A DNA stretch of 64,000 bases, taken from Bacteroidia bacterium. Its GTDB lineage: Bacteria; Bacteroidota; Bacteroidia; B-17B0; Aurantibacillaceae. Below, piece after piece: positions 33,084 through 63,035 of the stretch. Made by a program: the position numbers and the translations under genes. Where the stretch lies: positions 1-64,000 of the forward strand of contig JAEUTQ010000082.1 in assembly GCA_016787445.1 (NCBI GenBank). The letters are read 5' to 3'. The notes beneath the pieces were generated by a model. That model was given only the letters and a program-made list of their open reading frames with translations, did no database searches and was not told the DNA's origin. Position 1 is the stretch's first letter. Each line of letters opens with the position of its first letter.

Positions 33084-33536
33084 ATGCTTCAACGTGTACA
33101 AACCTTATTTTTATCGCTCATAATTGTTATTTCTGTTTTATTGCCATTTGTGCCTTTTCAACTTATTTCAACCTATGAAACCTCATATGTTGTAAATATG
33201 AGAATATGGAATTTAGGTCCAAATATAAAATCCATCATTTATATCCCTTTTACCCTGAATGCTCTAATTTTTGCACTAACACTCTTCACAATTTTTAAAT
33301 TTAAAAACAGACCGCTTCAAATGCTTTTATGCAGAATAATTGCTTTTACTTCAGGAGCAGTTATAGCTTGCTTTTTTTCATTGACGTATATTCAATTAAC
33401 AGACAGCAAGGATGTGGTAATGAATTACACGCTTATGGCGTTTTTACCCGGACTCAATATTTTACTAGCCTATATATCCAAGAAGTTTATTAAAAATGAT
33501 GAAGAGCTTGTTAAAAGCGCCGACAGAATCAGGTGA
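33084..33536 (+). CDS. DUF4293-family membrane protein
   Basis: The 150-residue protein has four membrane segments in the DUF4293 pattern of Bacteroidota: an N-terminal MLQRVQTLFLSLIIV start, a polar periplasmic loop (about 28-50), three further helices, and a C-terminal KKFIKNDEELVKSADRIR tail that is characteristic of the family. Function unknown. Its TGA overlaps the GTG start of the next gene (GTGA), implying translational coupling to the phosphatase at 33533. Confidence 0.82.
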   Translation: MLQRVQTLFLSLIIVISVLLPFVPFQLISTYETSYVVNMRIWNLGPNIKSIIYIPFTLNALIFALTLFTIFKFKNRPLQMLLCRIIAFTSGAVIACFFSLTYIQLTDSKDVVMNYTLMAFLPGLNILLAYISKKFIKNDEELVKSADRIR

Positions 33537-35794
33537 TTAGTAAATTAAAATATTCGATTTTATTTCTGTTTATACTTTGCAGTAATGTTGTTTGGGCAAT
33601 TCCTGATTCACTAATTAATATTATCGATTACACATCCGCTTTTGATCAAAACATTACCATTAACAATGGAAAAAGAGACAAAAAGTTTGATTTCGCTAAC
33701 CCTATTTGGCTTTTTAAAGTAGGAGACAAACCTGAGTATAAGTTAAATTCAAGAACTGATTCTAATTACACGCTTGTTAACGGACGTTCAGGTATAGTCT
33801 TGAGCCTAGAAAAGGATTCAGGTATATATGAATTTGGTTTCAGAGGTAATGCATGGTATAAATGTTATTTTAAAGTTCCACCAAAACAGGATAAAAAGGT
33901 ATATGGAATTGAAATAATGTTGCATGGTGCCTGTGAGGTTTATTATAATGGAGTATTACTAAATACAATAGGTAAAATTAATAGTGCTGGTGAATCTGAA
34001 ATAGAAATCAATGAAACCGGTCAGAAGATTAACTTTTATGTAGCAGATACATCAGTTCAATGCATTGCTATCCGATATGCATTTACTAATTACAAAAAAT
34101 TAAGTGACAAATACGGGGATGATGTAGAAGAACCTTCATTTAATTTTACTTCTGATGAAGTTGGAGAAAACGGAAAAACAGTTTTAAGCCTATATCACAG
34201 CATTACAAACATGCTTTCTGCTTTTTTCTTTTCCTTGTTTTTAATACACCTTCTTATTTATTTTTTCTACAGAGAAAAAAGTTTTAATCTTTTATATTCA
34301 CTTTTTTTATTCCTTTTATCACTTTCTTTTTTAGAAGCGTATTTATTGCAATTTGTTGAAGATTTAAGTTTCTATTTATGGCTTTCCAATATTGACGATA
34401 TCATCTTTCCAACTGTTTGTGTGATCTTAGTTACCCTTCTTAATAAGTTACTAAATGAGAAAAGAACATGGCATTACGTCGGTTTACTGATTCTTCTGGC
34501 GTATTTATATATAGATGTTTTATTTATCGATAAACATTCGAGAATATGTTTCATCACTATTATATTCTATACGTATTTCAATACATTGGCACATTCAATC
34601 AAAGGAATACGCCGTAGAACACCTTCTGCAAAATTTCTTGGCTGGGGTATTTTAGGATTAACACTTTCCATAATATTATTGATACTTTCCACAATAGTTG
34701 TTTCCATGATATCCATACAGGCGGCTGGTGAACCATGGGCATTATTCATTTTCGGTTTTTTCATTGTACTGTCTATTTTAAGTATACCATTGTCGATGAC
34801 CGCCTATCTTGCTTACGACTTTGCTTACACAAATAAATCCTTAGCGAAAAAATTAAAGGAAAACCAAGAATTAAACGCAAAATCTATTCAGCAGGAAAAA
34901 GAAAAGCAAGAATTACTAGCCAACCAAAATCGCACTTTGGAAACTCAGGTTGCGCAGCGCACAAAAGAAATTGCCGAGCAAAATAAAATGCTTGAACATC
35001 AAAAAAAAGAAATAACTGACAGTATAACTTACGCAAAGCGAATTCAACAAGCTTTACTTCCTGAATTAAGTGAAATCAAGGCTAAACTGCCTAACAGTTT
35101 TATTCTCTATTTGCCAAAAGATATTGTGAGCGGAGATTTTTATTACTTCCAAACCTTTAGTAGTGGTGCTGAACATCCGGGCCGAATGGAAAAATTAAAC
35201 GAATCTGGCACATATATTGCCGCTGCTGACTGTACGGGACATGGTGTTCCCGGTGCCTTAATGAGCATGATTGTACACGAAAAAATTGAGGCCGCTACTA
35301 AAATATTTAATCAGCCTAAGGATATTTTAAAAAGCATCAATAAACAGGTAAAGGATGCTTTAAAACAATATCAAAACGAGAATGCCTCAAGAGACGGCTG
35401 CGATATTGCATTTTTAAAATTATCTAATAATAAATTATTTTTTTCAGGTGCTTATCGACCATTATACCTTTTTGATAAGGAGAATAATTTCAGTGAAGTA
35501 AAAGCTACAAAAACGGCTATTGCAGGCTTAACGCCATACGATCAGGAATTCGAACAGCATGAATTTGATAGTACACAATTAAATGCTGTTTATGTATTTA
35601 GCGATGGGTTTGCAGATCAGTTTGGTGGCGAAAAGACTAAAAAACTTACCACAAAAAAATTCAAGGAACTTTTATCCAAAATAGTAGATTTGCCGATTGA
35701 CGAGCAAAAAGAGCATTTAAACACCTTTTTTAGCAGCTGGAAGGGTCAGGTAGAGCAAATTGATGATGTTTTAGTGATTGGCATCCGCTTCTAA
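33533..35794 (+). CDS. 7TM-DISM sensor SpoIIE-type PP2C phosphatase (3 of 4)
   Basis: The 753-residue protein starts at GTG 33533, overlapping the previous stop, and has a signal peptide (ending VWA). A periplasmic beta-rich domain (about 25-215) includes a jelly-roll-like stretch (YGIEIMLHGACEVYYNGVLL), as in the extracellular part of 7TMR-DISM receptors. Seven membrane helices follow (about 225-435), then a coiled coil (about 440-500) with EITDSITYAKRIQQALLP, and a PP2C/SpoIIE domain (about 530-753) with VSGDFYYF, AADCTGHGVPGA, RDGCDIAFL and IDDVLVI. DGCD replaces the DGMD of the other three copies; the metal-binding Asp residues remain. The ligand is unknown; carbohydrate or a small envelope molecule is possible. 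Confidence 0.88.
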   Translation: MISKLKYSILFLFILCSNVVWAIPDSLINIIDYTSAFDQNITINNGKRDKKFDFANPIWLFKVGDKPEYKLNSRTDSNYTLVNGRSGIVLSLEKDSGIYEFGFRGNAWYKCYFKVPPKQDKKVYGIEIMLHGACEVYYNGVLLNTIGKINSAGESEIEINETGQKINFYVADTSVQCIAIRYAFTNYKKLSDKYGDDVEEPSFNFTSDEVGENGKTVLSLYHSITNMLSAFFFSLFLIHLLIYFFYREKSFNLLYSLFLFLLSLSFLEAYLLQFVEDLSFYLWLSNIDDIIFPTVCVILVTLLNKLLNEKRTWHYVGLLILLAYLYIDVLFIDKHSRICFITIIFYTYFNTLAHSIKGIRRRTPSAKFLGWGILGLTLSIILLILSTIVVSMISIQAAGEPWALFIFGFFIVLSILSIPLSMTAYLAYDFAYTNKSLAKKLKENQELNAKSIQQEKEKQELLANQNRTLETQVAQRTKEIAEQNKMLEHQKKEITDSITYAKRIQQALLPELSEIKAKLPNSFILYLPKDIVSGDFYYFQTFSSGAEHPGRMEKLNESGTYIAAADCTGHGVPGALMSMIVHEKIEAATKIFNQPKDILKSINKQVKDALKQYQNENASRDGCDIAFLKLSNNKLFFSGAYRPLYLFDKENNFSEVKATKTAIAGLTPYDQEFEQHEFDSTQLNAVYVFSDGFADQFGGEKTKKLTTKKFKELLSKIVDLPIDEQKEHLNTFFSSWKGQVEQIDDVLVIGIRF

Positions 35795-49186: not shown

Positions 49187-49871
49187 GGCTTTTATTCATA
49201 TAACGGAATTTCTCATAAAAGAAACACCATAAAATGATCATGCTAAAGTTATAAAATAAATCCTCGAAAGGAATGGTTCCCATCCGAATGGATAAATTTT
49301 GGCTATCGTTGTAAATCAAAATTGGCCAAGATGTTAAAACTCCGTTACAAATAGCAAACGGTAAAAGACAAACAGTAAAGGCCAGATAAAACAAATTAAG
49401 CTGTTTCCATTTCGCAAAGTACGCCACATAAACAACGCATAAGATGGCCACTATTGAGTTAACAAGTGTATAAACCTTATTAAAACCATACACAAGCGTA
49501 ATTAAGTTAACGGCAATAATGATTTTGGTAATTAAATCGGTCACCGAATTAGTGTAATAACTTTTAAAGTAAACCCGAATACACTCGTAAATAAATACCG
49601 TTGAATATGGTACTGTAATAAAAAACAAACACTCTTCAATGGGCAGATTAAAAAAGTAAATCCCACTTACATATTCGGGATTAAACTGCCAGATTCCGCT
49701 TTTTGTAAATAGAATATCCCAAATAATAAAACCAATACCAACAATTAGTATGGAAAGAAAGAGCGATTTCCAGGTTTTATAAAAAGCTACTTTTTTATCA
49801 AAGCTCAAAATAAGCGGAAAGAAGATTACTGCCGCATCCAATAACAAATATGTAAACTTCGGATTAATCAC
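49179..49871 (-). CDS. Lycopene beta-cyclase of the CrtYc/CrtYd-fused membrane type
   Basis: The 230-residue membrane protein has about seven helices and both short motifs of the heterodimeric-type cyclases: PIEECLFF (about 76-83) from the first half and PFEDLFYNF (about 201-209) from the second. It should close a beta-ionone ring on a lycopene-type end. The start is GTG (overlap of 8 bases with the preceding stop). Located downstream of the CruF-like gene in a crtD-cruF-cyclase arm. Confidence 0.82.
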   Translation of the reverse strand: MINPKFTYLLLDAAVIFFPLILSFDKKVAFYKTWKSLFLSILIVGIGFIIWDILFTKSGIWQFNPEYVSGIYFFNLPIEECLFFITVPYSTVFIYECIRVYFKSYYTNSVTDLITKIIIAVNLITLVYGFNKVYTLVNSIVAILCVVYVAYFAKWKQLNLFYLAFTVCLLPFAICNGVLTSWPILIYNDSQNLSIRMGTIPFEDLFYNFSMIILWCFFYEKFRYMNKSHA

Positions 49872-50517
49872 GAAATACGTATAAACAGAATAAGAAAAAC
49901 ATGAATTGAGTTACATATAAAGTAAGCGCCGCTTGATTTTCCTTTAAAGGTAATTTCTTGCGTATGTAAAAGGAGAACAGCAACGAAATACAAAACCAAG
50001 CCACATAGTTAGACATTGGAATATGATTGTCTTTCCAAAACCAAAATCCCATTATATGAACGCTTTGCTCTATCACTACATCCAATAGTACCATTAGGAA
50101 TGAAGCGCCAATGACAGACACATAAAAGGATTGTTTCCGTAAAATCACATGGCAGGCATATAATAACATGATCCAATTTATGCCAATTACTAAAGGTACA
50201 TTCAATAGTCTAGGGCCAAGATTGGTTCCGTAATAATACTCTCCAAAAGGAAAACCGGTATAAACACCCAGTACTTCAATAAAAAAGGCCAATAATGCCA
50301 CATTCAAAACAACCACATAATGGATTGGCTTTAATTCAGCCTTCCAGAAAAGCATGATGGCGGAAAGCACCAGATTAAAAACCGATAGTTTTAAAAAGTA
50401 AACCGGGGCAAATAACATCCCAACTGCTCCGATACAATGAAACAATATAATAATCGCCGATGGCAACCAGGGATCGTTTATTTTTTTTAAAACATTCAAC
50501 TTAATTATGCTTATCAA
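49864..50517 (-). CDS. cruF: CruF-family carotenoid 1',2'-hydratase
   Basis: The 217-residue polytopic membrane protein belongs to the carotenoid biosynthesis (DUF422/CruF) family: VLGVYTGFPFGEYYYGTNLG (the core YTGFPFGEYYYG near 89-100), NVPLVIGINWIMLLY and LDVVIEQ are diagnostic. CruF adds water to the psi end of a carotenoid. The start is uncertain: TTG 50517 overlaps crtD by 17 bases, and TTG 50499, immediately after the crtD stop, also fits; no ATG is available. It overlaps the cyclase gene by 8 bases. Confidence 0.82.
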   Translation of the reverse strand: MISIIKLNVLKKINDPWLPSAIIILFHCIGAVGMLFAPVYFLKLSVFNLVLSAIMLFWKAELKPIHYVVVLNVALLAFFIEVLGVYTGFPFGEYYYGTNLGPRLLNVPLVIGINWIMLLYACHVILRKQSFYVSVIGASFLMVLLDVVIEQSVHIMGFWFWKDNHIPMSNYVAWFCISLLFSFYIRKKLPLKENQAALTLYVTQFMFFLFCLYVFRD

Positions 50518-51967
50518 TTATCATATTTCCGGCAATTTTTGCCGAAAGTAAACACAAAGGAATTCCGCCACCGGGATGTACACTTCCTCCGCAAAAATAC
50601 AAACCTTTAATCTTACTACTGTAATTAGCGTGTCTTAAAAACGCAGAAAACTTATTATTGGACGAATTACCATACAAAGAACCGCCATATGACGATGTAT
50701 CTTTCTCAATGGTGAATGGGTCCCAAGTAGATTCCTCCTCTATATATGGAAGAATATCTGTTTTAAGAATTCTGTTTACTTTCTTAATCACATTCAATTT
50801 CAGCTCATCAAAATAACCTACCGGTAAATGTGATTTATTGTGTGGCGCGTTAATTAAAATAAACCAATTTTCACAACCTGCAGGTGCATCTTTTTTACAC
50901 ACTTTAGAACTGATATGAATATACACAGTTGGGTCGTGATAAGGTTTATCGGAATTAAAAAGCTGCTCAAATTCCTTTTCATAATTATCACTAAACAAAA
51001 TATTATGTACGCCCAGCTCTGTGAATTCGCGTTTTATTCCCCAATAAAAGATATAAGCAGAGGATGATTTTTCCTGATTTAGCAATTTATGTGGTGTGTA
51101 TTTTGAAGGAAGTAATTTCTGATATACTACATGCATATCGGCATCGCTCAACACAATATCACTTTCAAAAAGAGAACCATTGGCTTTAAGGCCTTTTACT
51201 TTTTCATTTTCAATAACAATGTCTTCCACCTTATGGTTAAAATAAAACTCAACACCTTGTTCTTTGGCCAAACCGTAGATGTATTTGGTAATGTCGTACA
51301 TCCCTTCGTTAGGCATAAATGCTCCGATATTATATTCCAAATGTGGAATGATATTCAGTAATGCCGGCGCCTTATAGGGATTAGAACCATTATAAGTCGC
51401 GTACCGATTAAATAATTGCACTGTTTTTGGGTTTTTAAAGCGCTTTGCATTCGCTTCATGCATTGTTTTACTTAATTGCAGTTTTTTAATATTCCCAATA
51501 GCTTTTATTGTTTTTATATTAAAAAAATTATGCGGCTTGTGTAAGGACTGATGTAAAAACAAATCGGCGGTATAATGATACAACTGAGCACTATGTTCTA
51601 AATGCTTCAGCACAGCCTCCCTACTCTCTCCTAAATGCTGATGAATTTCATCGGCGAATGCATTTAAATCGGATTTTGCTTTTAAACGTGTTCCGTCTTC
51701 ATAGAAATAATGACAAACATCGTTCAGTTTTTGAAATTTAAACTGTGATTTGGTTTTCGTTAGTTCACCCAATTCATTTACCAAATGCGGCATGGTAAAT
51801 AAAGAAGGACCTTTATCAAATCGATAGGCGCCAAGATTCATTTCGCAAAGTTTGCCGCCGGGATGTGCCGCACTCTCGAATACACTCACCTTAAATCCGG
51901 CCTTCGCCAAACGTACCGATGCGGCCAGTCCTGCTATTCCGCTTCCGATGATATGAACGCGCTTCAA
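50501..51967 (-). CDS. crtD: 1'-hydroxycarotenoid 3',4'-desaturase, CrtD type
   Basis: The FAD-dependent desaturase family is shown by the N-terminal dinucleotide fold (HIIGSGIAGLAASVRLA), the FDKGPSLFTMP segment and the C-terminal GLYFCGGSVHPGGGIPL. The GPSLFTMP form, in contrast to GPSWYWMP of the divergent neighbour, points to CrtD, which desaturates after hydration by CruF. I place the start at TTG 51967 (MKRVHIIGSG); the frame continues to a TTG at 52021, but that extra stretch is Lys-rich, non-homologous and holds a -7-like element. It would be 488 residues from this start, a normal family length. Confidence 0.82.
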   Translation of the reverse strand: MKRVHIIGSGIAGLAASVRLAKAGFKVSVFESAAHPGGKLCEMNLGAYRFDKGPSLFTMPHLVNELGELTKTKSQFKFQKLNDVCHYFYEDGTRLKAKSDLNAFADEIHQHLGESREAVLKHLEHSAQLYHYTADLFLHQSLHKPHNFFNIKTIKAIGNIKKLQLSKTMHEANAKRFKNPKTVQLFNRYATYNGSNPYKAPALLNIIPHLEYNIGAFMPNEGMYDITKYIYGLAKEQGVEFYFNHKVEDIVIENEKVKGLKANGSLFESDIVLSDADMHVVYQKLLPSKYTPHKLLNQEKSSSAYIFYWGIKREFTELGVHNILFSDNYEKEFEQLFNSDKPYHDPTVYIHISSKVCKKDAPAGCENWFILINAPHNKSHLPVGYFDELKLNVIKKVNRILKTDILPYIEEESTWDPFTIEKDTSSYGGSLYGNSSNNKFSAFLRHANYSSKIKGLYFCGGSVHPGGGIPLCLLSAKIAGNMIIDKHN

Positions 51968-51988
51968 ATTTTTACGTTTTTTAATAAA

Positions 51989-51996
51989 CAATTGTA
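51989..51996 (-). promoter_or_regulatory. Possible -7 element of the crtD arm
   Basis: On the minus strand TACAATTG matches TAnnTTTG at seven of eight positions and would start transcription near 51984, about 17 bases before TTG 51967. A TTG lies 22 bases further upstream, slightly beyond the usual distance. Confidence 0.3.
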
Positions 51997-52021
51997 GTGA
52001 AAGTTTGTTTAACTTAGGCAA

Positions 52022-53491
52022 GTGAAGAAAAATATTTCCATAATCGGTGCCGGATTCTCAGGTTTAGCGGCAGCATGTTATCTGGCAAAAGACGGATATA
52101 ATGTTACTATTTACGAGAAACATTCACAAATTGGCGGACGTGCACGTACCATCGAAAAAGATGGTTTTTTGTTTGATATGGGTCCAAGCTGGTATTGGAT
52201 GCCGGATGTTTTTGAGCGTTTTTTCGGAGATTTCGGAAAAAAGGTTTCTGATTACTACGAGTTAAAAAGACTTTCACCGGGATATCGCATATATTTTAGT
52301 GATGAATATTTAGATGTTCCGGCTTCGTTGGAAGAATTATACGAAGTATTTGAAAAGCACGAGAAAGGAAGTGCGGCTAAGCTCAAACAATTCTTAAAAG
52401 AAGCCGAATACAAATACAATGTTGGAATTCACGAATTGGTTTATAAACCGGGCGTAAATATTTCTGAATTGATGGATGCCCGTTTGATAACGGGAATATT
52501 TAAATTGGATGTTTTCAAATCCATCCGAAAGCACATTGCTAAAAATTTCAAAAATCCAAAGCTGGTTCAATTGCTTGAATTTCCTGTTTTGTTTTTAGGT
52601 GCCTTACCGCAAAACACACCCGCGCTTTACAGTTTAATGAATTATGCTGATTTGGTTCTTGGAACCTGGTATCCTATGGGCGGAATGGCCGTGGTGCCGG
52701 AGGCTATGAAAAAACTAGCTCTTGAATTAGGCGTGAAGTTTGAAACGGGGGTTGACGTATCTGCAATAGAATTGAATGGAAACCTGGCAAAAAAATTAAA
52801 AGCGCAGAAAGAATATAACGGTTTCGATGCACTGATTTCTTCAGCGGATTATCATTTTACCGACCAGGTATTACTTCCTCCTACTCACCGTCATTATACT
52901 AAAGACTATTGGGAATCACGGAAAATGGCACCAAGTTCTATTTTATTTTACGTGGGAATCAATAAAAAATTACCAAATCTTCTTCATCATAATTTGTTTT
53001 TCGATGAAGATTTTGAATTACACTCTCAGGAGATTTACACAACTCCCAAATGGCCAAGTAAACCTTTATTGTATGTAAGTTGTACTTCCAAAACTGACCC
53101 TATTACCGCGCCTGAAGGTTACGAAAACTTAACCATCCTCATTCCGGTTGCCCCGGGGTTAAATGAAAGTGAGGAAATAAAAGAGAAGTATTTCAATTTG
53201 GCTATAGAACGTATTGAGAAAAAAATAGGTATGAGCTTTAAAAAAAACATCATCTTTAAACATATTTATTCGCCAAAAAATTTCATTAACGATTATAACT
53301 CTTTTAAAGGGAATGCCTATGGATTAGCTAACACCTTGCTTCAAACAGCGCATTTAAAACCTTCCATTAAGAGTAAAAAAGTAAAAAATCTGTTCTACAC
53401 CGGACAATTAACAGTTCCCGGGCCGGGAGTTCCGCCTTCTTTAATTTCAGGAAAACTAGTTGCTGATCAAATAAACAATTATTTCAAGTAA
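52022..53491 (+). CDS. crtI: Phytoene desaturase CrtI
   Basis: The 489-residue FAD-dependent enzyme desaturates phytoene to lycopene. It has the dinucleotide fold IIGAGFSGLAAACYLAK, FDMGPSWYWMPDVF near 52-65 (the typical CrtI box of Bacteroidota), YPMGGMAVVPEAM near 220, and the C-terminal GQLTVPGPGVPPSLISGK. The start is GTG 52022. It is divergent from crtD, with 54 bases between the two starts, and is followed at once by idi, so desaturase and isoprenoid supply are co-expressed. Confidence 0.9.
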   Translation: MKKNISIIGAGFSGLAAACYLAKDGYNVTIYEKHSQIGGRARTIEKDGFLFDMGPSWYWMPDVFERFFGDFGKKVSDYYELKRLSPGYRIYFSDEYLDVPASLEELYEVFEKHEKGSAAKLKQFLKEAEYKYNVGIHELVYKPGVNISELMDARLITGIFKLDVFKSIRKHIAKNFKNPKLVQLLEFPVLFLGALPQNTPALYSLMNYADLVLGTWYPMGGMAVVPEAMKKLALELGVKFETGVDVSAIELNGNLAKKLKAQKEYNGFDALISSADYHFTDQVLLPPTHRHYTKDYWESRKMAPSSILFYVGINKKLPNLLHHNLFFDEDFELHSQEIYTTPKWPSKPLLYVSCTSKTDPITAPEGYENLTILIPVAPGLNESEEIKEKYFNLAIERIEKKIGMSFKKNIIFKHIYSPKNFINDYNSFKGNAYGLANTLLQTAHLKPSIKSKKVKNLFYTGQLTVPGPGVPPSLISGKLVADQINNYFK

Positions 53492-53494
53492 GTG

Positions 53495-53995
53495 ATGGAA
53501 GAAGTTGTACTTGTAAATGAGAAGGACGAATCCATTGGCCGCATGGAAAAAATGGAGGCACATGAAAAAGGACTTCTGCACCGTGCCATCTCTGTATTCA
53601 TTCTCAACGAAAAGGGTGAAATGCTTTTACAAAAACGTGCTTTGCACAAATATCACAGCGCCGGTTTATGGACAAACACCTGTTGCAGTCATCCACGTCC
53701 CGGTGAAGACACTAAAATGGCTGCGGAGCGCCGTCTTTTTGAAGAAATGGGAATAAAAACCTCCTTAAATCATAAGGGAGAGTTTATTTACAAAACTGAA
53801 TTTGGCAACGGTCTCACTGAATTTGAACTGGATCATGTTTTTACGGGAATTTATACTGAAAATCCCGAATTAAATCCAGAAGAAGCCGCCGATTTTTGCT
53901 GGAAATCCATTCCCGACATCAAAATTGATATCGGGACCTTCCCCAATAGCTATACCTCCTGGTTTAAAATAGCCCTTGAGAAGTTTTTTAGTTAA
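53495..53995 (+). CDS. idi: Isopentenyl-diphosphate delta-isomerase, type 1
   Basis: The enzyme interconverts IPP and DMAPP for terpenoid synthesis. Nudix-fold type 1 markers are AISVFILNEKGEMLLQKRA, the catalytic-Cys loop TNTCCSHPRPGE (about 62-73), RRLFEEMG and the acidic ELDHVFTG. I prefer ATG 53495 to the GTG at 53492 that immediately follows the crtI stop. It is three bases behind crtI. A carotenoid-dedicated isomerase next to crtI is common in pigmented Bacteroidota. Confidence 0.92.
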   Translation: MEEVVLVNEKDESIGRMEKMEAHEKGLLHRAISVFILNEKGEMLLQKRALHKYHSAGLWTNTCCSHPRPGEDTKMAAERRLFEEMGIKTSLNHKGEFIYKTEFGNGLTEFELDHVFTGIYTENPELNPEEAADFCWKSIPDIKIDIGTFPNSYTSWFKIALEKFFS

Positions 53996-55434: not shown

Positions 55435-57597
55435 ATGAAAAAAATCATTGTCTTACTGTTTTTAGCAGTCAATCTGTTTGCAGCTCCTCCTGCCACTACG
55501 GTTGAATTTATTAAAGTAGATCAGTTTGGTTACAAGCCGAATGATGAAAAAATTGCAGTGATTGCGAATCCTATTACCGGGTACAACAACACAACACCAT
55601 TCTCGCCAGGTACTACTTATCAGGTGAGAGAATGGACAACCAATATCGTTGTTTTTACTGGCTCTATTACGCCTTGGAATGCAGGAGCAACACAAACACA
55701 ATCGGGTGATAAAGTTTGGCACTTTAATTTCAGTTCATTAACAACTCCCGGGAGTTATTACATTTTTGATGTAACAAACAATGTGGGCTCGTATCGATTT
55801 GAAATTAACACCTGCGTTTATAACAATGTCATGAAAGCTGCGGTACGTATGTTTTATTACCAACGTTGTGGCATGGCAAAGGCCTTTCCATTTGCTGATA
55901 CAGGATTTGTAGATGGAGTTTGTCACAAAGGAACACAACAGGATACCGACTGTCGATTGTATAATAATACCAATGTCTCAACCTCGAAGGATTTATCCGG
56001 TGGATGGCACGATGCAGGTGATTACAACAAGTATGTGAATTTCGCTTACTCGCCATTAATTGATATGTTACTGGCTTATGAATATAATCCTACTGTATTC
56101 AGTGATGATTATAATTTGCCTGAATCAGGAAACGGTATTCCTGATTTATTAGATGAAGTGAAATATGAATTAGACTGGTTTATGAAAATGCAGGGAAACG
56201 ACAGCTCCCTTATTTCTGTTATTGGCGGAGGTTCTGCCAGTCCGAATTCAGCAGATGTCGCGTTCCGACGTTACGGTCCGCCAACAACGGCAGCCAGTTT
56301 AACAGGCGCAGCTGCTTTTGCTTTGGCCGCCATTCAATTTAATGCTATTGGTCAAACTACATACGCAGCTTCACTTCAATCGCGCGCCATAAAGGCTTGG
56401 CATTGGGCAAATAACCATCCCAATATTACATTTTATAATGCCGGGACATTAGCTGCCGGAGAACAACAAACGAGCGCTTATGATACTGATATGCGTAAGT
56501 TGGGCGGTGCTATTTATTTGTATGCACTTACCGGAAATAATTTTTACAGAACCTATGTAGATGCGAATGTTCCCAATGCGCATTTGATTATGTGGACTTA
56601 TGCCTACCCTTTTGAAGCTGTTGAGCAGGATGCCCTACTTTATTATACCAAAACACCCGGAGCCACAACAGCTATCCGTAATCAAATAATAAATTCTTAT
56701 TCGGTAAGCATGCAAACGAATAATGCTGATAATTTACCTGCACATATTAATAAAACAGATGCTTACAGAGCCTGGATGGCCAATAATAATTACACTTGGA
56801 ACAGCAATCAAACTAAAAGCAAACAAGGCATTATGTTCTTATTAATGAATCAGTATAATTTGAATTCTGCCAATTCTACAAATTACACAAATGCAGCTTC
56901 CGGATTTGTACATTACATGCACGGTGTAAATCCAAATACAAAAGTTTATTTAAGCAATATGAAAAAATACGGAGCTGAAAACTACGTAAAACAATTCTAT
57001 CATAGTTGGTTTAAAGACGGAAGTGCCTTATGGGATGAGGAAGGAGTTTCTACCTATGGTCCTGCACCTGGTTATATTCCCGGTGGACCAAATCCAAGCT
57101 ATTCACTTGCTTCGTGTTGTCCGAGTACATGTGGCAGTGCAGCCAATAATGCACTTTGCTTAACGAATGTAACACCACCCATGGGACAACCCATTCAAAA
57201 GTCGTATAAAGATTTTAATAATGATTGGCCGGTTAACAGTTGGGAGATCACAGAGGCCGGCATTTATACAAATGCCGCATATGTAAGGATGTTATCCAAG
57301 TTTATAAGTACCGGTTGCAGCACAAGTACTGGATTAGAAAATAATCTTACAAACACAAAGAATGAAGCCAGGCTATATCCTAATCCTACAGAAAACAAAG
57401 TATTTATACAATTAAGTAACAAAGAAACAGGTTTTAGTTGCAAAATATTCTCAGTAAGCGGACAACTCTTAGCAGAAGGAATCGATAATAACAACGGTCT
57501 AATAGAAATAAATATGGAAAAGATGTCAGCAGGCATCTATTTTGCTGAAGTAAGCTATAATAACACTAAGCAAACCATTAAATTTGTAAAAGAATAA
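55435..57597 (+). CDS. T9SS-secreted GH9 endoglucanase-type glycoside hydrolase
   Basis: The 720-residue protein has a signal peptide (ending LFAAP), an N-terminal CelD-type Ig domain (about 20-125; VDQFGYKPNDEKIAVI) and a GH9 (alpha/alpha)6 catalytic domain (about 130-625). Catalytic features: GGWHDAGDYNKY at 189-200 with Asp193 and Asp196, the His segment YMHGVNPNTKVYLS, and the proton-donor Glu607 in WEITEAGIYTNAAY. It ends with a T9SS sorting domain starting LYPNPTENKVFI. It should cut beta-1,4-glucans such as cellulose or mixed-link glucan outside the cell. It is followed after 8 bases by an unknown secreted protein. Confidence 0.92.
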   Translation: MKKIIVLLFLAVNLFAAPPATTVEFIKVDQFGYKPNDEKIAVIANPITGYNNTTPFSPGTTYQVREWTTNIVVFTGSITPWNAGATQTQSGDKVWHFNFSSLTTPGSYYIFDVTNNVGSYRFEINTCVYNNVMKAAVRMFYYQRCGMAKAFPFADTGFVDGVCHKGTQQDTDCRLYNNTNVSTSKDLSGGWHDAGDYNKYVNFAYSPLIDMLLAYEYNPTVFSDDYNLPESGNGIPDLLDEVKYELDWFMKMQGNDSSLISVIGGGSASPNSADVAFRRYGPPTTAASLTGAAAFALAAIQFNAIGQTTYAASLQSRAIKAWHWANNHPNITFYNAGTLAAGEQQTSAYDTDMRKLGGAIYLYALTGNNFYRTYVDANVPNAHLIMWTYAYPFEAVEQDALLYYTKTPGATTAIRNQIINSYSVSMQTNNADNLPAHINKTDAYRAWMANNNYTWNSNQTKSKQGIMFLLMNQYNLNSANSTNYTNAASGFVHYMHGVNPNTKVYLSNMKKYGAENYVKQFYHSWFKDGSALWDEEGVSTYGPAPGYIPGGPNPSYSLASCCPSTCGSAANNALCLTNVTPPMGQPIQKSYKDFNNDWPVNSWEITEAGIYTNAAYVRMLSKFISTGCSTSTGLENNLTNTKNEARLYPNPTENKVFIQLSNKETGFSCKIFSVSGQLLAEGIDNNNGLIEINMEKMSAGIYFAEVSYNNTKQTIKFVKE

Positions 57598-57605
57598 ATT
57601 ATTAT

Positions 57606-59180
57606 ATGAAACTTTCATTTAGCTCAATCGCACTTTTAGCAGGCATTCAGCTTACTATAGCACAACAAAACTCACCGTATACAGTTAAGGTTTCCCAGGA
57701 ATTTGAATCTCCGAAACGCCATGTGGTAATGAATCCCGTAGCCTATGGTGATTTAGGTATAATACAGGTAAATGCAAAAAAGGTAGAGTCCTTTTCATTT
57801 CAGTTGTTTAATAACGATTTGAAGTATTTAAAAGAAAACACTGTTAGTACAGAGGGAAAATTAAATGAACACGTAAGTTATAACCGATTTCAGAAGTTCA
57901 ACAACAAAACTTACTTAATGGTAAGAGATGTATTTAAAGATACAGAGACGGAAGGAATTTCAGCACTTGAGTTTTCTCCAGAAAAATTGGACTTTGTGGG
58001 ACAATCGCGCAATTTATTTAAATCATCCGATAAGGTACGTTCATTTAGTTATAGCTTTCACATGAGTGAAGACGAAAAAAATTTCATGTACACTTATGAG
58101 TTGGTGAGTCGTGAAAAACGCGACAAGCTGAATAAGGATATTGTGGGTATGCATATTTTTGATGAAAACCTGGGTAAGATATGGGGCGCGGAAGTTGAGA
58201 TGCCATACACAGAAGCTAAAATGGATAACTGGGGTTATACATTGGGTGATGACGGAACTGTTTATTTACTGGCCAGAGTTTATAACGATGACACACAAAA
58301 AGAAAGTATTGATGGTTTACCTAACTATCATTTCGAAGTTATTATGTATAATGCCGATAATGTTAAACCTAAAATCATAAAAGTAAACCTGGATAATAAT
58401 TTCCCTAAAGAAGCGTACATCTATGAAAATGAAAAGCATGACATTTTCGTAAGTGGCTTTTATTCTAAAGGTGCCAACAAACCAATCGATGGGGCCTATA
58501 TGGTAACGATAGACACCAAGCAGGGCATTTCAATGAAACCCGAAGGCGGTTATTATGAATTTCCTTCCGAATTAATTAAATCATTCATGAGCGACAGAGA
58601 AAAGAAGCGAGCAGAAAAGAGAGAACAAAAGGATTCTGACTTAGGAATTGATTTCTTAAAAATTCGAGCCATTTATAAAATGAAAAACGGATCCACTACC
58701 ATCGTTTCTGAACAATACCATGTAGTGACACGCACTTATTATAATGGAAGAACAACCCAAACCACATATGACACCTATGCAGAAGATGTTTTTATCATGA
58801 ACATCGATGCGATGCGTAAAATGAAATGGGTGAAGAAAATTCCGAAAGCTCAACACAGTAATGATGCTGGCGGACCACAATTATCTATACAATCTTATGC
58901 TGTCGGTAATGACATTCATGTTTTTTACGTCGATAATTTGAAAAATTTAAATCTGCCGGTGAATGAAGCGCCTAAATGGCATGAGCAAGGTCGCGGTGGA
59001 TTTTTAACCGGTGTTAAAATTGATGAGAACGGCAATCAGAGTAAATATAATTTAGGAGAGGTAGAAAAATACGAAACCAATTTTTATATCCGTGAATTCA
59101 TTGACGGAGGCAGAAATAATATAATAAGTAGTGAGCGTAAACATAAAATGAATAGCCTTTACTCTATTGAGATAAAATAA
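57606..59180 (+). CDS. Exported protein of unknown function
   Basis: The 524-residue protein has a signal peptide (1-20, ending TIAQ) and no lipobox. The chain is beta-rich with repeated strand-turn units (YLMVRDVFKDTETEG, VYLLARVYNDD, HDIFVSGFYSKGA) that suggest a beta-propeller, although no recognised repeat motif is kept. A charged helix (SDREKKRAEKREQKDSD, about 330-347) interrupts it. It is sandwiched with 8 and 3 base gaps between the GH9 enzyme and a SpoIIE phosphatase, so the three are probably one transcript. It lacks a T9SS tail. Confidence 0.6.
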   Translation: MKLSFSSIALLAGIQLTIAQQNSPYTVKVSQEFESPKRHVVMNPVAYGDLGIIQVNAKKVESFSFQLFNNDLKYLKENTVSTEGKLNEHVSYNRFQKFNNKTYLMVRDVFKDTETEGISALEFSPEKLDFVGQSRNLFKSSDKVRSFSYSFHMSEDEKNFMYTYELVSREKRDKLNKDIVGMHIFDENLGKIWGAEVEMPYTEAKMDNWGYTLGDDGTVYLLARVYNDDTQKESIDGLPNYHFEVIMYNADNVKPKIIKVNLDNNFPKEAYIYENEKHDIFVSGFYSKGANKPIDGAYMVTIDTKQGISMKPEGGYYEFPSELIKSFMSDREKKRAEKREQKDSDLGIDFLKIRAIYKMKNGSTTIVSEQYHVVTRTYYNGRTTQTTYDTYAEDVFIMNIDAMRKMKWVKKIPKAQHSNDAGGPQLSIQSYAVGNDIHVFYVDNLKNLNLPVNEAPKWHEQGRGGFLTGVKIDENGNQSKYNLGEVEKYETNFYIREFIDGGRNNIISSERKHKMNSLYSIEIK

Positions 59181-59183
59181 AGC

Positions 59184-61325
59184 ATGAATCAAACCATTAA
59201 AGCAAACACATTAATAAAGGTATTAATATGGATTACTGTCATCAGTAGTCTATTGGGTCAGTTATTCAAATTAATACATTGGCCAGGTGCCTCTATATTA
59301 ATGATGCTTGGTACCTTTGTACTTTGCTTTTTATACATTCCTTTATATTTTATAGAGGCTCAGAAGAGTATAGACTCGTTCAAATCCAAATTAATCTTAC
59401 TGGCGGAAAGCTTGGTTATTTTTCTATTTGGACTAGGATTTTTATTTAAAATCATGCATTGGCCGGGTTCGGGACTTTTATATAATTTAAATTACAATAT
59501 ACTTTTCTTTATTGTTACGCCTTATTCAATTTATCACTTAATTAAATCATTTAAGAAAAGTATATTCACTACACACGCTATTTTTCTGGCCATATATTTC
59601 TTTGCTTTCAGCATGAGCTCGCTTTTCATGTCGGGTACCGGTAAAATAAATGTTAATCCAATTTATGTACAAGGAAATAATATGGAGAATGCTCTTCAAT
59701 CGGCAAACTCACGTAATCTTAACTTATACAAAACCATTAAAGAGGCAGGCATTAACGATTCTTTGTCCATTTCCATAAAATCCAAAAAATTAAAAGAATT
59801 ATGCGATACTACTTCCAGATTTATTCAGGATTTAAAATCGGAATTGTTAAGTAAGTCGGCAGAAATAACTAAAGCTGAAGCAGATTCATTGCATTTTGTG
59901 AATATTAAAAGTCCCAACGAAATGGATATCCCAAATTTAATTTTGTTCGAAACAGGTGACCCAAAAACCTATAAATATTCCGCTTCTCGATTAAAAAAGG
60001 TGATAAATAGTTTTAGAGACTCGCTTATTAATCTTGTTAGTGAAGAAAAGCGTACAGTAATTGGTGAAGGTATCAATTTATCAACTGAAAATTATGAAAG
60101 TACCGATGGTGAAATCATTACCTGGGAGGTAGAAAATTTCTCCCATACCCCACTCTTGTCTGCAATTTACACACTACTTTCCATACAATATGAAATTAAA
60201 AACGCGGAGTATCAGATATTGATTGATATTCTGAATTCAGAAAAACAAAATTTGAGCAGCGGCGTACAAAACAAAATATCTGAATTGAATTCAAACTATA
60301 CCGAAAACAAAAAACAAAAAGAAATTAGCAAATTACAAAGTGAAAATGAGAAGCGAGAAGTAATGATAAATCAACGGGAAGAAGAATTAAACACGCAGAA
60401 ACAAACCATTCTTGTATTTGTGTTAATCACCTTATTATTCCTCATAATGGTTTTTTTCGTTGTAAGAAGCAATTACTTAAGAAAACAAGCTAATAAAACA
60501 TTATTAAGTCAGAAAATAATCATTGAAAAGCAGAAAGAAGAAACGGAGCAACAGAAGCATGTTATTGAAGAAAAACAAAAGGAAATTATAGACAGTATCT
60601 CCTATGCGAAGCGATTACAGGAAGCCATCTTACCTCCGGCTAAATTTATTAATGAGAACCTACCCAATAATTTTGTTATTTATTTACCGAAAGATATTGT
60701 TGCGGGTGACTTCTATTGGGCTGAAAAAATCAACGATCTCTTCTTTATTGCCGCCGCCGACAGCACAGGTCACGGGGTACCGGGTGCTATGGTTAGTGTA
60801 GTTTGCAGCAACGCACTTAACCGTACTGTTAAAGAATTTAATATTACTGATACAGGAAAAATATTGGATAAAACACGTGAGTTGGTTTTAGAAACTTTTT
60901 CGAAAAGCAATAGTGATGTAAAAGACGGAATGGACATTTCCTTATTATGCGTTGACAAAGCAAAAAAATCAATTTACTGGAGCGGCGCCAATAATCCGCT
61001 TTGGTATTTGAGTAACAATGAACTTAAAGAAATTAAAGCTGATAAGCAACCTGTTGGAAAAAGCGATCACGCAAAACCTTTTACAAGTCATCAATTAACT
61101 TACAACCCGGGAGATATTTTTTACTTATTTACAGATGGACTTGCTGATCAATTTGGCGGACCAAAAGGAAAAAAATTCAAATACAAGCAGTTTGAAGAAT
61201 TATTAGTGTCCATTAAAAACAAATCCATGAATGAACAAGCTCAGGATATCTCTAACGTCTTTATGAATTGGAAAGGTGGACTTGAACAAGTGGATGATGT
61301 TTGTGTACTAGGTATTAAATTATAG
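59184..61325 (+). CDS. SpoIIE-type PP2C phosphatase with GldL-like membrane hairpins (4 of 4)
   Basis: The 713-residue protein has four membrane helices in the first 140 residues. Two contain the motif FKLIHWPGA (28-36) and FKIMHWPGS (88-96), the same kind of FKxxHWPG motif found in the membrane part of the T9SS/gliding motor protein GldL. A periplasmic, mostly helical domain follows (about 150-400), then another membrane helix (about 412-430), a coiled coil with EIIDSISYAKRLQEAILPP, and an intact SpoIIE/PP2C domain (about 490-713; AGDFYWA, AADSTGHGVPGA, KDGMDISLL, VDDVCVL). It closes the GH9 transcript. The output domain is very close to that of the gene at 29016. Confidence 0.85.
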   Translation: MNQTIKANTLIKVLIWITVISSLLGQLFKLIHWPGASILMMLGTFVLCFLYIPLYFIEAQKSIDSFKSKLILLAESLVIFLFGLGFLFKIMHWPGSGLLYNLNYNILFFIVTPYSIYHLIKSFKKSIFTTHAIFLAIYFFAFSMSSLFMSGTGKINVNPIYVQGNNMENALQSANSRNLNLYKTIKEAGINDSLSISIKSKKLKELCDTTSRFIQDLKSELLSKSAEITKAEADSLHFVNIKSPNEMDIPNLILFETGDPKTYKYSASRLKKVINSFRDSLINLVSEEKRTVIGEGINLSTENYESTDGEIITWEVENFSHTPLLSAIYTLLSIQYEIKNAEYQILIDILNSEKQNLSSGVQNKISELNSNYTENKKQKEISKLQSENEKREVMINQREEELNTQKQTILVFVLITLLFLIMVFFVVRSNYLRKQANKTLLSQKIIIEKQKEETEQQKHVIEEKQKEIIDSISYAKRLQEAILPPAKFINENLPNNFVIYLPKDIVAGDFYWAEKINDLFFIAAADSTGHGVPGAMVSVVCSNALNRTVKEFNITDTGKILDKTRELVLETFSKSNSDVKDGMDISLLCVDKAKKSIYWSGANNPLWYLSNNELKEIKADKQPVGKSDHAKPFTSHQLTYNPGDIFYLFTDGLADQFGGPKGKKFKYKQFEELLVSIKNKSMNEQAQDISNVFMNWKGGLEQVDDVCVLGIKL

Positions 61326-61838: not shown

Positions 61839-63035
61839 TCAGGCTTGATTAAAGCTTAAGCTGAAAACTAAACCATTACGGTTAGCGAATTCATATTTAC
61901 CTTCTAATTGCTCGGTTAATGATTTAATGAGTTCAATACCCAATGCATTTGGTTTATTTAACGCTTCATTAGTTATACCAGGTCCGTTATCCCTAACAAC
62001 TAAATTAATTGAATTACCATTTTTCTTTAATTCGATGGACACCTGAATAGCCGCTTCATGTGACCCGGCATGTTTGTAAGCATTTGTGATAAGTTCGTTT
62101 AAGATTAAGCCACAAGGAATGGCATTACTTAATTCTAAATTAATATTTTCAGCATCTATTGCAACGTTTAGCTTCTTTGTGCCTCCTAATGAGTGCTTAA
62201 TATCCTTTACTAAATCATTGATGTAATCTTTAAAATTTAAGCTCTCAAGGTTATTGCTATTATACATTTTTTGATGCACGAGAGCCATCGAATAAACCCT
62301 GTTACGGCAATCATCCAGCGCTTCTTGAACTTCCTTGGAAGAAGACATGTCCTTTTTAAGATTAAGAAGACTTGTCACAATATTCATATTATTCTTAACT
62401 CTATGATAGACTTCGGCTAATAATACTTCTTTCTCATTGAGCATGTTTTTAATTAATCGTTCCTGGCTCATCGATTCAGTAACAACAACAATAATAAAAG
62501 CAATCGCAGTAATGAAACTTAAAATAATCATAAATATACTTAAGTCTTGAATCGTTTCTTTCGACAAGGGAGATTCAAACCAATGATACCTGTAGCTAAA
62601 TACTATCACAACTGCACAAACAACAACTAGTGAGCTTAAAATGATCAAATGCTTCAATAATTCTCGCCGACCAAGTAACTGAATCATACTGATAATAACA
62701 GGAAAGAAAAACAACAGAATAAATGAATCCTTTCCCATGTGTAAATTGAAGGCCGTTAAATAGAGATACCCTAAAATATAAAACCAGTAAACACCCCAAA
62801 TTACATTTTTATACTTATTAAACACAAACACCATTGGTCCAATGGCAAGAACAATAAAACACTCAAGATTAAATTGCGGCAAACCGATTAAACTAAAAAA
62901 GACTATTCCAATAATATTATTGACAAGGGCAATTATTGTAATAGCATTTAACTTACGCATTAAGTAAACTTCCCACGTTTGCAAGCCCGGCTTTACACCA
63001 ATGTTTACTATTTTATTTAAGTAAGCCTTAATCAT
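61839..63035 (-). CDS. HisKA_2-type membrane sensor histidine kinase
   Basis: The 398-residue kinase has six predicted membrane helices (about 30-187), with no sizeable periplasmic sensor domain. The dimerisation domain is of the HisKA_2 type, with phospho-acceptor His211 in EVYHRVKNNMNIV. The HATPase_c domain (about 290-395) has the N-box NELITNAYKHA and the G1 box VRDNGPGI. This class usually phosphorylates stand-alone or unusual response regulators; none is adjacent. The ATG overlaps the stop of the ABC-F gene by one base, so it is the second gene of that transcript. Confidence 0.9.
   Translation of the reverse strand: MIKAYLNKIVNIGVKPGLQTWEVYLMRKLNAITIIALVNNIIGIVFFSLIGLPQFNLECFIVLAIGPMVFVFNKYKNVIWGVYWFYILGYLYLTAFNLHMGKDSFILLFFFPVIISMIQLLGRRELLKHLIILSSLVVVCAVVIVFSYRYHWFESPLSKETIQDLSIFMIILSFITAIAFIIVVVTESMSQERLIKNMLNEKEVLLAEVYHRVKNNMNIVTSLLNLKKDMSSSKEVQEALDDCRNRVYSMALVHQKMYNSNNLESLNFKDYINDLVKDIKHSLGGTKKLNVAIDAENINLELSNAIPCGLILNELITNAYKHAGSHEAAIQVSIELKKNGNSINLVVRDNGPGITNEALNKPNALGIELIKSLTEQLEGKYEFANRNGLVFSLSFNQA

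Follow-up and report, generated by a model that had tools for sequence, protein, structure and literature searches.

A single-chain fusion of GldL- and GldM-type motor membrane parts with a PP2C phosphatase in a Bacteroidia bacterium

Introduction

Ion-driven 5:2 motors are familiar as devices for mechanical work, by which other components are pushed or rotated. A motor-type membrane unit can also pass a signal inward, as does the MotAB-like ZorAB of Zorya defence, in which the ion-driven motor is kept. RsbU/SpoIIE-type phosphatases differ from the protein described here, P0001, in their front end and membrane topology. They belong to the same catalytic family (PDB 3KE6, 5UCG), and so does SiaA of the SiaABC system of Pseudomonas aeruginosa (PDB 6K4E), which shares the PP2C fold and active-site residues with P0001. 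According to the available part of PMC7647112, SiaA contains a HAMP domain and spans the membrane in two regions, and the phosphorylation of SiaC is balanced by SiaA and SiaB. In P0001, by contrast, the front is made of GldL and GldM parts, and no siaBCD neighbors were seen beside its gene.

With the GldLM/PorLM motor of the type 9 secretion system (T9SS) and gliding (PDB 6YS8, 7SAT, 7SAU, 7SAX, 7SAZ), P0001 shares the FKxxHWPG hairpins, the GldM-type membrane helix, and the D1 fold. Unlike this motor, P0001 is a single chain in which the hairpin is doubled and a PP2C domain is added, whereas the glutamate E49, the GldL tail, the GldM domains D2-D4, and the PRQKMI signature are lacking. The parts are known, but their combination was not found in the literature searched. 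A fusion of GldL/GldM to PP2C or PadR was not found described there, although an earlier mention is possible, for example in the 2021 GldLM structure paper. The available text of the 5:2 motor review PMC9389320 does not mention fusions, a phosphatase, or sensor use, and in that of PMC10951265, "fused" refers to two-hybrid constructs and not to a GldL/GldM sensor fusion.

Results and Discussion

The window, that is, the whole stretch of 64,000 nucleotides of DNA that was analyzed, contains an open reading frame at 59184-61325 on the + strand with a stop-free translation of 713 residues. Its product P0001 combines membrane parts of both motor subunits, GldL and GldM, with a signaling enzyme in a single polypeptide, and the Pfam families GldL_N, GldM_1st, and SpoIIE all exceed their curated cut-offs in this chain. 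Over the full length, there is a 90% identical sister, and homologues in other families of the class are 39-57% identical. The features of the gene are as follows:

59184..61325, + strand: whole gene, 713 amino acids; two GldL hairpins, GldM-type transmembrane helix and D1, stalk, TM6, signaling helix, PP2C
59208..59363, + strand: GldL-type hairpin 1, residues 9-60, motif FKLIHWPGA at 59265-59291; Pfam GldL_N at 23-60, model helices 9-31 and 36-60
59379..59546, + strand: GldL-type hairpin 2, residues 66-121, motif FKIMHWPGS at 59445-59471; second GldL_N stretch, local profile match at 84-98, model helices 66-90 and 96-121
59562..59630, + strand: fifth membrane helix (TM5), residues 127-149, placed like the single GldM transmembrane helix; model helix, structural alignment to 7sax_B, profile match
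59637..60248, + strand: GldM/PorM D1-like periplasmic domain, residues 152-355; Pfam GldM_1st, 7cmg_A, 104-bit profile score
60258..60407, + strand: periplasmic stalk, residues 359-408, a putative coiled coil; part of the continuous model helix 359-482, pLDDT about 70-75
60408..60464, + strand: sixth membrane helix (TM6), residues about 409-427; hydrophobic stretch ILVFVLITLLFLIMVFFVV, read from the sequence, inside helix 359-482
60465..60629, + strand: cytoplasmic signaling helix, residues 428-482, leading into the phosphatase; conservation of 431-482
60639..61322, + strand: SiaA/SpoIIE-type PP2C domain, residues 486-713, metal ligands intact; Pfam, NCBIfam, 6k4e_B, invariant ligands

The AlphaFold model of P0001, a monomer built with 52 sequences (mean pLDDT 85.6, pTM 0.49), has helices at 9-31, 36-60, 66-90, 96-121, and 127-149, a helical domain at 152-352, a single helix at 359-482, and the phosphatase at 486-712. 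GldL has its N-terminus inside, in the cytoplasm. With the same orientation, D1 of P0001 would be periplasmic and the phosphatase cytoplasmic. A sequence-only reading of this DNA had placed the two motifs at residues 28-36 and 88-96, in paired membrane helices ahead of a SpoIIE output domain. The motif positions are exactly those given, each motif lies between the two helices of a pair in the model (9-31/36-60 and 66-90/96-121), and Pfam SpoIIE covers residues 521-712 (3.1e-18). What that reading overlooked is the GldM N-terminal domain at residues 165-351 (Pfam GldM_1st). With this domain, the protein no longer resembles GldL by a motif alone but joins parts of both motor subunits.

The GldL-type identity of the hairpins ahead of the PP2C domain, which had been proposed from the motif, was borne out by profile comparisons. 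Pfam GldL_N (PF22827) matched in two stretches, with 3.3e-7 and 30.8 bits for the whole protein and 4.2e-9 and 36.9 bits for residues 1-141 alone (cut-off 24). A profile of genuine GldL hairpins scored 42.0 bits against residues 1-141; none of 1000 shuffled versions exceeded 8.4 bits, and the reversed sequence reached 1.9. The full-length GldL equivalog TIGR03513 (68.3 bits) was not reached, with 12.9 bits for the whole protein and 25.1 bits for the N-terminus. As the GldL profile alignments to the hairpins are short (15-28 residues), the objection that the likeness to GldL is confined to the motif partly applies to the hairpins alone, but it is overridden by the fused GldM domain: with a GldM-type membrane helix and D1 next in the same chain, the relationship is supported much more strongly than by the motif. 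In hairpin 1, K29, H32, P34, A36, and P53 are invariant among the 12 PP2C-type proteins (own protein included), and K29, P34, P53, H92, W93, and W314 are invariant across 35 module sequences.

For the GldM part, Pfam GldM_1st (PF12081) matched residues 165-351 with 6.2e-17 and 62.7 bits (cut-off 25), and NCBIfam GldM_gliding matched 165-356 with 6.3e-13, beneath its equivalog cut-off. A full-length GldM with D2-D4 (TIGR03517, 180 bits) was not detected, as P0001 reached 48.3 bits and the match stopped at profile position 228 of 524. The genuine-GldM profile gave 104 bits for residues 140-360, as against 8.4 for the best of 1000 shuffles and 0.8 for the reversed sequence. In structural comparisons, model residues 154-355 aligned to the PorM periplasmic domain 7cmg_A in the PDB (Z 22.1, rmsd 1.9 A, 184 residues), and model residues 129-353 aligned to residues 5-215 of 7sax_B with the GldM membrane helix included (Z 20.0, rmsd 3.7, 202 residues). 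A module profile of 23 sequences found the solved motor complexes, with GldM up to 6.5e-31 and GldL up to 4.6e-5, and its columns 130-343 matched the GldM transmembrane helix and D1 to its end. Among the 12 PP2C-type proteins, W314 and P323 in D1 are invariant, and there is no invariant residue in TM5. The N-terminal PRQKMI signature of GldM was found in none of 58 fusions, with a loose form in two. In a quick, unrooted D1 tree with several long branches, 28 GldM rows (from among those listed) were on one side of a branch with an SH-aLRT of 97 and all 57 fusion rows, the G005 fragment L012 among them, on the other; D1 matches shorter than 110 residues had been dropped. This separation is in line with an old split.

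The C-terminal half is that of a SiaA-type phosphatase. NCBIfam SiaA (NF038263) matched residues 448-712 with 6.4e-50 and 170.4 bits, which covers the C-terminal part only and is far below the 700-bit equivalog cut-off, and model residues 461-713 aligned to SiaA 6k4e_B with Z 32.0, rmsd 2.1, and 242 residues. The active-site residues of SiaA are D457, D474, G477, D600, G601, and D653 (available part of PMC7647112); their counterparts by motif in P0001 are D509, D526, G529, D651, G652, and D704 or D705, all of which are invariant among the 12 PP2C-type proteins. The signaling helix is also well conserved in these proteins, with a mean identity of 0.68 and 10 invariant residues in 431-482. The half from the stalk through the membrane helix and signaling helix to PP2C is more conserved than the module and up to 68% identical to phosphatases with a non-matching front part, which indicates front-end swapping.

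Contiguous hairpin-plus-D1 matches were found in at least 19 of 60 genomes, own genome included. The PP2C form was intact in seven (G000, G003, G004, G007, G011, G016, and G056), and a copy in G005 is interrupted and stops before the phosphatase. A class-level search, in which three candidates were scored per genome, added PP2C forms in G094 (57% identity), G099, and G315 and detected full fusions in at least 6 of 295 genomes, including G099 with a match to query positions 8-516. With two further PP2C forms on the metagenome-assembled Bacteroidota contigs L135 and L136, the total is 12. When up to seven candidates were scored per genome in a phylum survey, 3 of 296 genomes (G000, G097, and G055) had a hairpin-plus-D1 match at 1e-20. 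As judged from these searches, the module family is rare in the phylum sample and more common near the lineage of the window.

We also counted architectures over 1473 reading frames from 214 loci, with identical proteins taken once and with L for hairpin, M for D1, and P for PP2C. The architectures with PP2C were LLMP (9), LMP (1), MP (3), LP (5), and LLP (4); the three MP cases are two proteins with diverged hairpins and the G005 fragment, and some of the LP and LLP entries are incomplete versions of the same genes. Without PP2C, there were LLM (29), LLLM (14), LM (2), LL (37), and LLL (8). Hairpins and a detectable D1 thus occur together in 55 distinct proteins, P0001 included, and this makes a chance pairing implausible. 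Pfam scans of 28 proteins, two of which are unrelated neighbors, found GldL_N in 25 and GldM_1st in 24. There are also stand-alone double-hairpin proteins of about 145-180 amino acids, proteins in which hairpins and PP2C occur with no GldM part, and 45 proteins that have several hairpins but no detectable D1, 35 of which have at least 180 residues past the last hairpin. For one of the latter, a protein of 382 amino acids from the own genome (L002), the model suggests a tail that folds like D1: PorM/GldM made up the first nine rows of the VIA-align comparison with Z 8.8-12.5, below the value of about 13 under which helical bundles call for caution. Foldseek gave no match to this model at E <= 0.001, and in the alignment of this protein, just 12 of the 33 sequences have a Pfam GldM_1st match.

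A second output became apparent in Bacteroidota relatives that share the hairpin module with P0001 but have an N-terminal cytoplasmic helical domain and an upstream PadR instead of PP2C. Among 57 relatives with an N-terminal extra domain of about 80 residues and a complete upstream sequence, 49 have a PadR-like gene just upstream, namely 22 of the 25 with a detectable D1 and 27 of the 32 without; such an upstream gene was seen in none of 30 relatives without the N-terminal extension. All ten upstream genes that were sampled are PadR by Pfam. No PadR was found beside 13 PP2C-type rows, whose loci are mostly about 4-5 kb, with two of 10-13 kb. Four hairpin-PP2C genes without D1 (L048, L090, L091, and L092) are divergent beside PadR operons. 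A HAAS-type identity was considered for the N-terminal domain of the PadR-linked relatives but found no support, as ten segments gave no Pfam match of this kind at E values up to 5. By sequence, the module has two outputs, either PP2C in cis (12 proteins) or an upstream PadR-like gene, and its recurrence with two unrelated outputs supports the earlier suggestion that the hairpins are used as a sensory module.

Motor residues of GldL were lost in these proteins. According to the available part of PMC8986121, E49 of GldL is strictly conserved and essential for secretion and gliding. At this position, which is 19 residues past the F of the motif, every genuine GldL locus retrieved from relatives (30 of 30) has a glutamate, and an acidic residue had not been a condition for including a locus. 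Among the fusion and hairpin-PP2C proteins, however, none of 133 aligned hairpins (out of 134, with one left unaligned) had an acidic residue there; the position was L in 63, F in 27, P in 13, and others in the rest. Both P0001 hairpins have L at this position, with the conserved Pro53 in hairpin 1. The acid at the E59 position was absent in 18 of 18 PP2C-type hairpins and in 92 of 93 other GldL-GldM fusion hairpins. A proline at F+25 was present in 17 of 18 and 88 of 93 hairpins of these two groups and missing in all nine hairpins of the hairpin-PP2C proteins without D1. Acidic residues elsewhere were present in 3 of 120 second helices (TM2) and in 19 of 120 stretches ahead of the motif (14 of the 134 hairpins were outside the motif pattern and left out), and an alternative proton path is therefore possible in some hairpins. 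Nevertheless, as E49 is gone from the aligned hairpins, proton harvesting in the way of GldL is unlikely, and the earlier idea that the module would couple the phosphatase to envelope energisation is not supported for this route. As GldM D2-D4 and the cytoplasmic tail of GldL are also missing, P0001 is probably not a motor.

A genuine GldL was found in 40 of 41 related genomes searched, and the one genome without a match, G022, is fragmented and 78% complete, yet has the fusions. In the own genome, GldL is encoded beside GldM on contig C61, a second GldM-like gene is on C18, and the phosphatase gene is not adjacent to gldLM. This genome also has 50 SpoIIE-type matches and seven SiaC matches, the latter on contigs other than C17, and thus seems to rely heavily on this type of signaling.

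In our view, P0001 is rather probably a six-pass inner-membrane receptor phosphatase, the sensing half of which is related to the T9SS/gliding motor and in which a shift of D1 switches PP2C, with PadR taking this role in relatives. As in GldM, D1 and the stalk would mediate dimerization of P0001, and the hairpins may form a static ring that encloses the GldM-type helices. An envelope change would shift D1; this could be a D1 ligand, an altered state of the membrane, or a motor or ring protein in contact with the receptor. The shift would be passed through the stalk, TM6, and the helix before the phosphatase to switch the enzyme. The stimulus could possibly be the motor state, envelope energisation, or a soluble ligand, and direct proton harvesting is the least likely route, as E49 is lost. 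The phosphatase might then dephosphorylate a SiaC- or STAS-type partner-switch protein. This substrate is a guess, because no SiaC, STAS, or kinase partner was seen among the genes just beside the phosphatase gene; the nearest kinase-like gene is at 61839-63035 on the opposite strand. In relatives without PP2C, the module may act on the upstream-encoded PadR via the cytoplasmic N-terminal helical domain. We infer a motor-derived receptor family.

A different role would be that of a reporter that co-assembles with genuine GldL and GldM, in a mixed ring or as a D1 heterodimer, and reads rotation, load, or assembly. The likely interface regions are kept (hairpin K/H, HWPG loop, and D1 fold), and the own genome and nearly all relatives carry a genuine GldL (40/41). 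There is also a precedent for contact between motor and signaling, as the T9SS regulator PorX was found to interact with GldL by its CheY domain in Flavobacterium in two-hybrid assays (available part of PMC10951265). However, the fusion D1 domains are apart from the 28 genuine GldM D1 domains in the tree, TM5 has diverged, and the gene is not beside gldLM in the own genome, and we therefore consider co-assembly unlikely. Far less credible still is that P0001 is itself an energized motor that turns or strains the phosphatase: parts of both subunits are fused, the GldL motif retains its K and H, and some hairpins have acidic residues elsewhere, but this can hardly compensate for the loss of E49 in 133/133 and of the E59-position acid in 18/18 and 92/93 hairpins and for the lack of GldM D2-D4 and the GldL cytoplasmic tail.

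The same very low probability applies to the view of the HWPG hairpins as a membrane element of general occurrence in Bacteroidota that has only the motif in common with GldL. The shortness of the hairpin-GldL matches, the stand-alone double hairpins, the hairpin-PP2C proteins without GldM, and the 45 multi-hairpin proteins without detectable D1 would fit such an element. It is countered by the 55 distinct proteins with hairpins and GldM D1 in one chain, by the frequency of GldL_N (25) and GldM_1st (24) among the 28 scanned proteins, including the two unrelated neighbors, and by the GldM D1 fold that does follow the hairpins in the P0001 model (7cmg_A, Z 22.1). It is also improbable, if less so, that P0001 is a receptor phosphatase of the usual RsbU/SiaA type whose GldL/GldM parts do no sensing of their own and only anchor and dimerize it. 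In agreement with this, conservation is higher in the PP2C half than in the module, and that half is up to 68% identical to phosphatases with other fronts, so that front ends seem to be freely swapped; yet the module recurs with the second, unrelated output PadR, and the invariance of K29, P34, P53, H92, W93, and W314 over 35 sequences goes beyond the needs of an anchor.

If the preferred reading of a receptor phosphatase is extended, Bacteroidota might possess a receptor class in which motor membrane units are fused and the proton carrier is removed; the silenced motor would then read the envelope or the live GldLM, possibly in a mixed assembly, and report to PP2C and PadR. We put this forward tentatively and regard it as rather doubtful in this general form. 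Motor membrane parts were apparently rebuilt as a receptor front end without the proton carrier, in cells that keep a working motor, and this may be a Bacteroidota route that links PadR regulation and Ser/Thr phosphorylation to the condition of the envelope or of the T9SS. As a natural motor-dead GldLM in one chain, the protein is also a tool for analyzing the roles of the HWPG loop and D1 apart from proton flow.

Two genes are located closely upstream of the phosphatase gene:

55435..57597, + strand: GH9 enzyme with a T9SS type A sorting tail, first gene of a tight cluster; Pfam, NCBIfam; 8-base gap to the next gene
57606..59180, + strand: 524-amino-acid protein, 3 bases ahead of the phosphatase gene; the sister G007 is the one other genome in which it was found next to a PP2C-type gene

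We did not retain the GH9 operon as evidence for a T9SS link. In tblastn searches with the GH9 enzyme, the 524-amino-acid protein, an SRPBCC-like protein, and a kinase-like protein against 12 PP2C-type loci (own genome not counted; 8-17 kb, several of them short upstream), only the sister locus L037 matched; L087 is uninformative on GH9 linkage because it has just 297 bases upstream. With GH9 beside the PP2C-type gene only in the nearest sister, G007, a T9SS connection through this neighbor is not supported. The 524-amino-acid protein had no significant Pfam or NCBIfam match, and scans for promoters and terminators gave sites that were not above shuffle expectation. Locally, the transcript that had been proposed from the sequence does hold, as the gaps are 8 and 3 bases, the cluster starts with the GH9 enzyme and its T9SS sorting tail, and the phosphatase gene closes it.

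Relatives of the hairpin proteins

Hairpins of the GldL type (FKxxHWPG) also occur in other arrangements. Several loci, among them L051:5351-7750, L054:4655-7060, and L052:4608-7054, carry tandem pairs in which a three-hairpin GldL-GldM protein is followed by a two-hairpin one, and such pairs could perhaps form a heteromeric receptor. At L157, L189, L192, L204, and L205, the double hairpin occurs as a free-standing protein, roughly 145-156 aa long, that lacks both D1 (the first periplasmic domain of GldM) and PP2C. The copy of the PP2C-type gene in the relative's genome G005 (L041:6913-8358) is interrupted by a stop, and its end falls before the phosphatase.

The genome under study contains two further genes for hairpin or GldM-like proteins:

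L002:1099-2247 (contig C62), second double-hairpin protein
L003:1381-3060 (contig C18), second full-length GldM-like gene

The C-terminal end of the double-hairpin protein resembles GldM D1 in a predicted model, which is suggestive; Pfam detects no GldM D1 there. The adjoining reading frames look like SiaB and SiaC, the SiaC match being confirmed on the same contig at C62:3549-3899, and a PP2C lies nearby. No GldL was found near the GldM-like gene within the 3.6 kb of sequence at that locus, and the adjoining gene reads as a peptide release factor.

Other genes of the window and genome

Beyond the phosphatase gene, the window holds the following genes:

20030-22018 (-), SpoIIE-type PP2C gene
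29016-31445 (+), SpoIIE-type PP2C gene
33533-35794 (+), SpoIIE-type PP2C gene
57606-59180, 524-aa protein, N-terminus signal-like as read from the sequence

The whole genome gave 50 SpoIIE matches in 3.77 Mb, which strikes us as a large set. The 524-aa protein had no significant family match in Pfam or NCBIfam, and a 97% identical counterpart adjoins the phosphatase gene in the sister genome. Window positions 49864-53995 hold a putative carotenoid biosynthesis cluster, with presumed paired desaturases and a presumed IPP isomerase.
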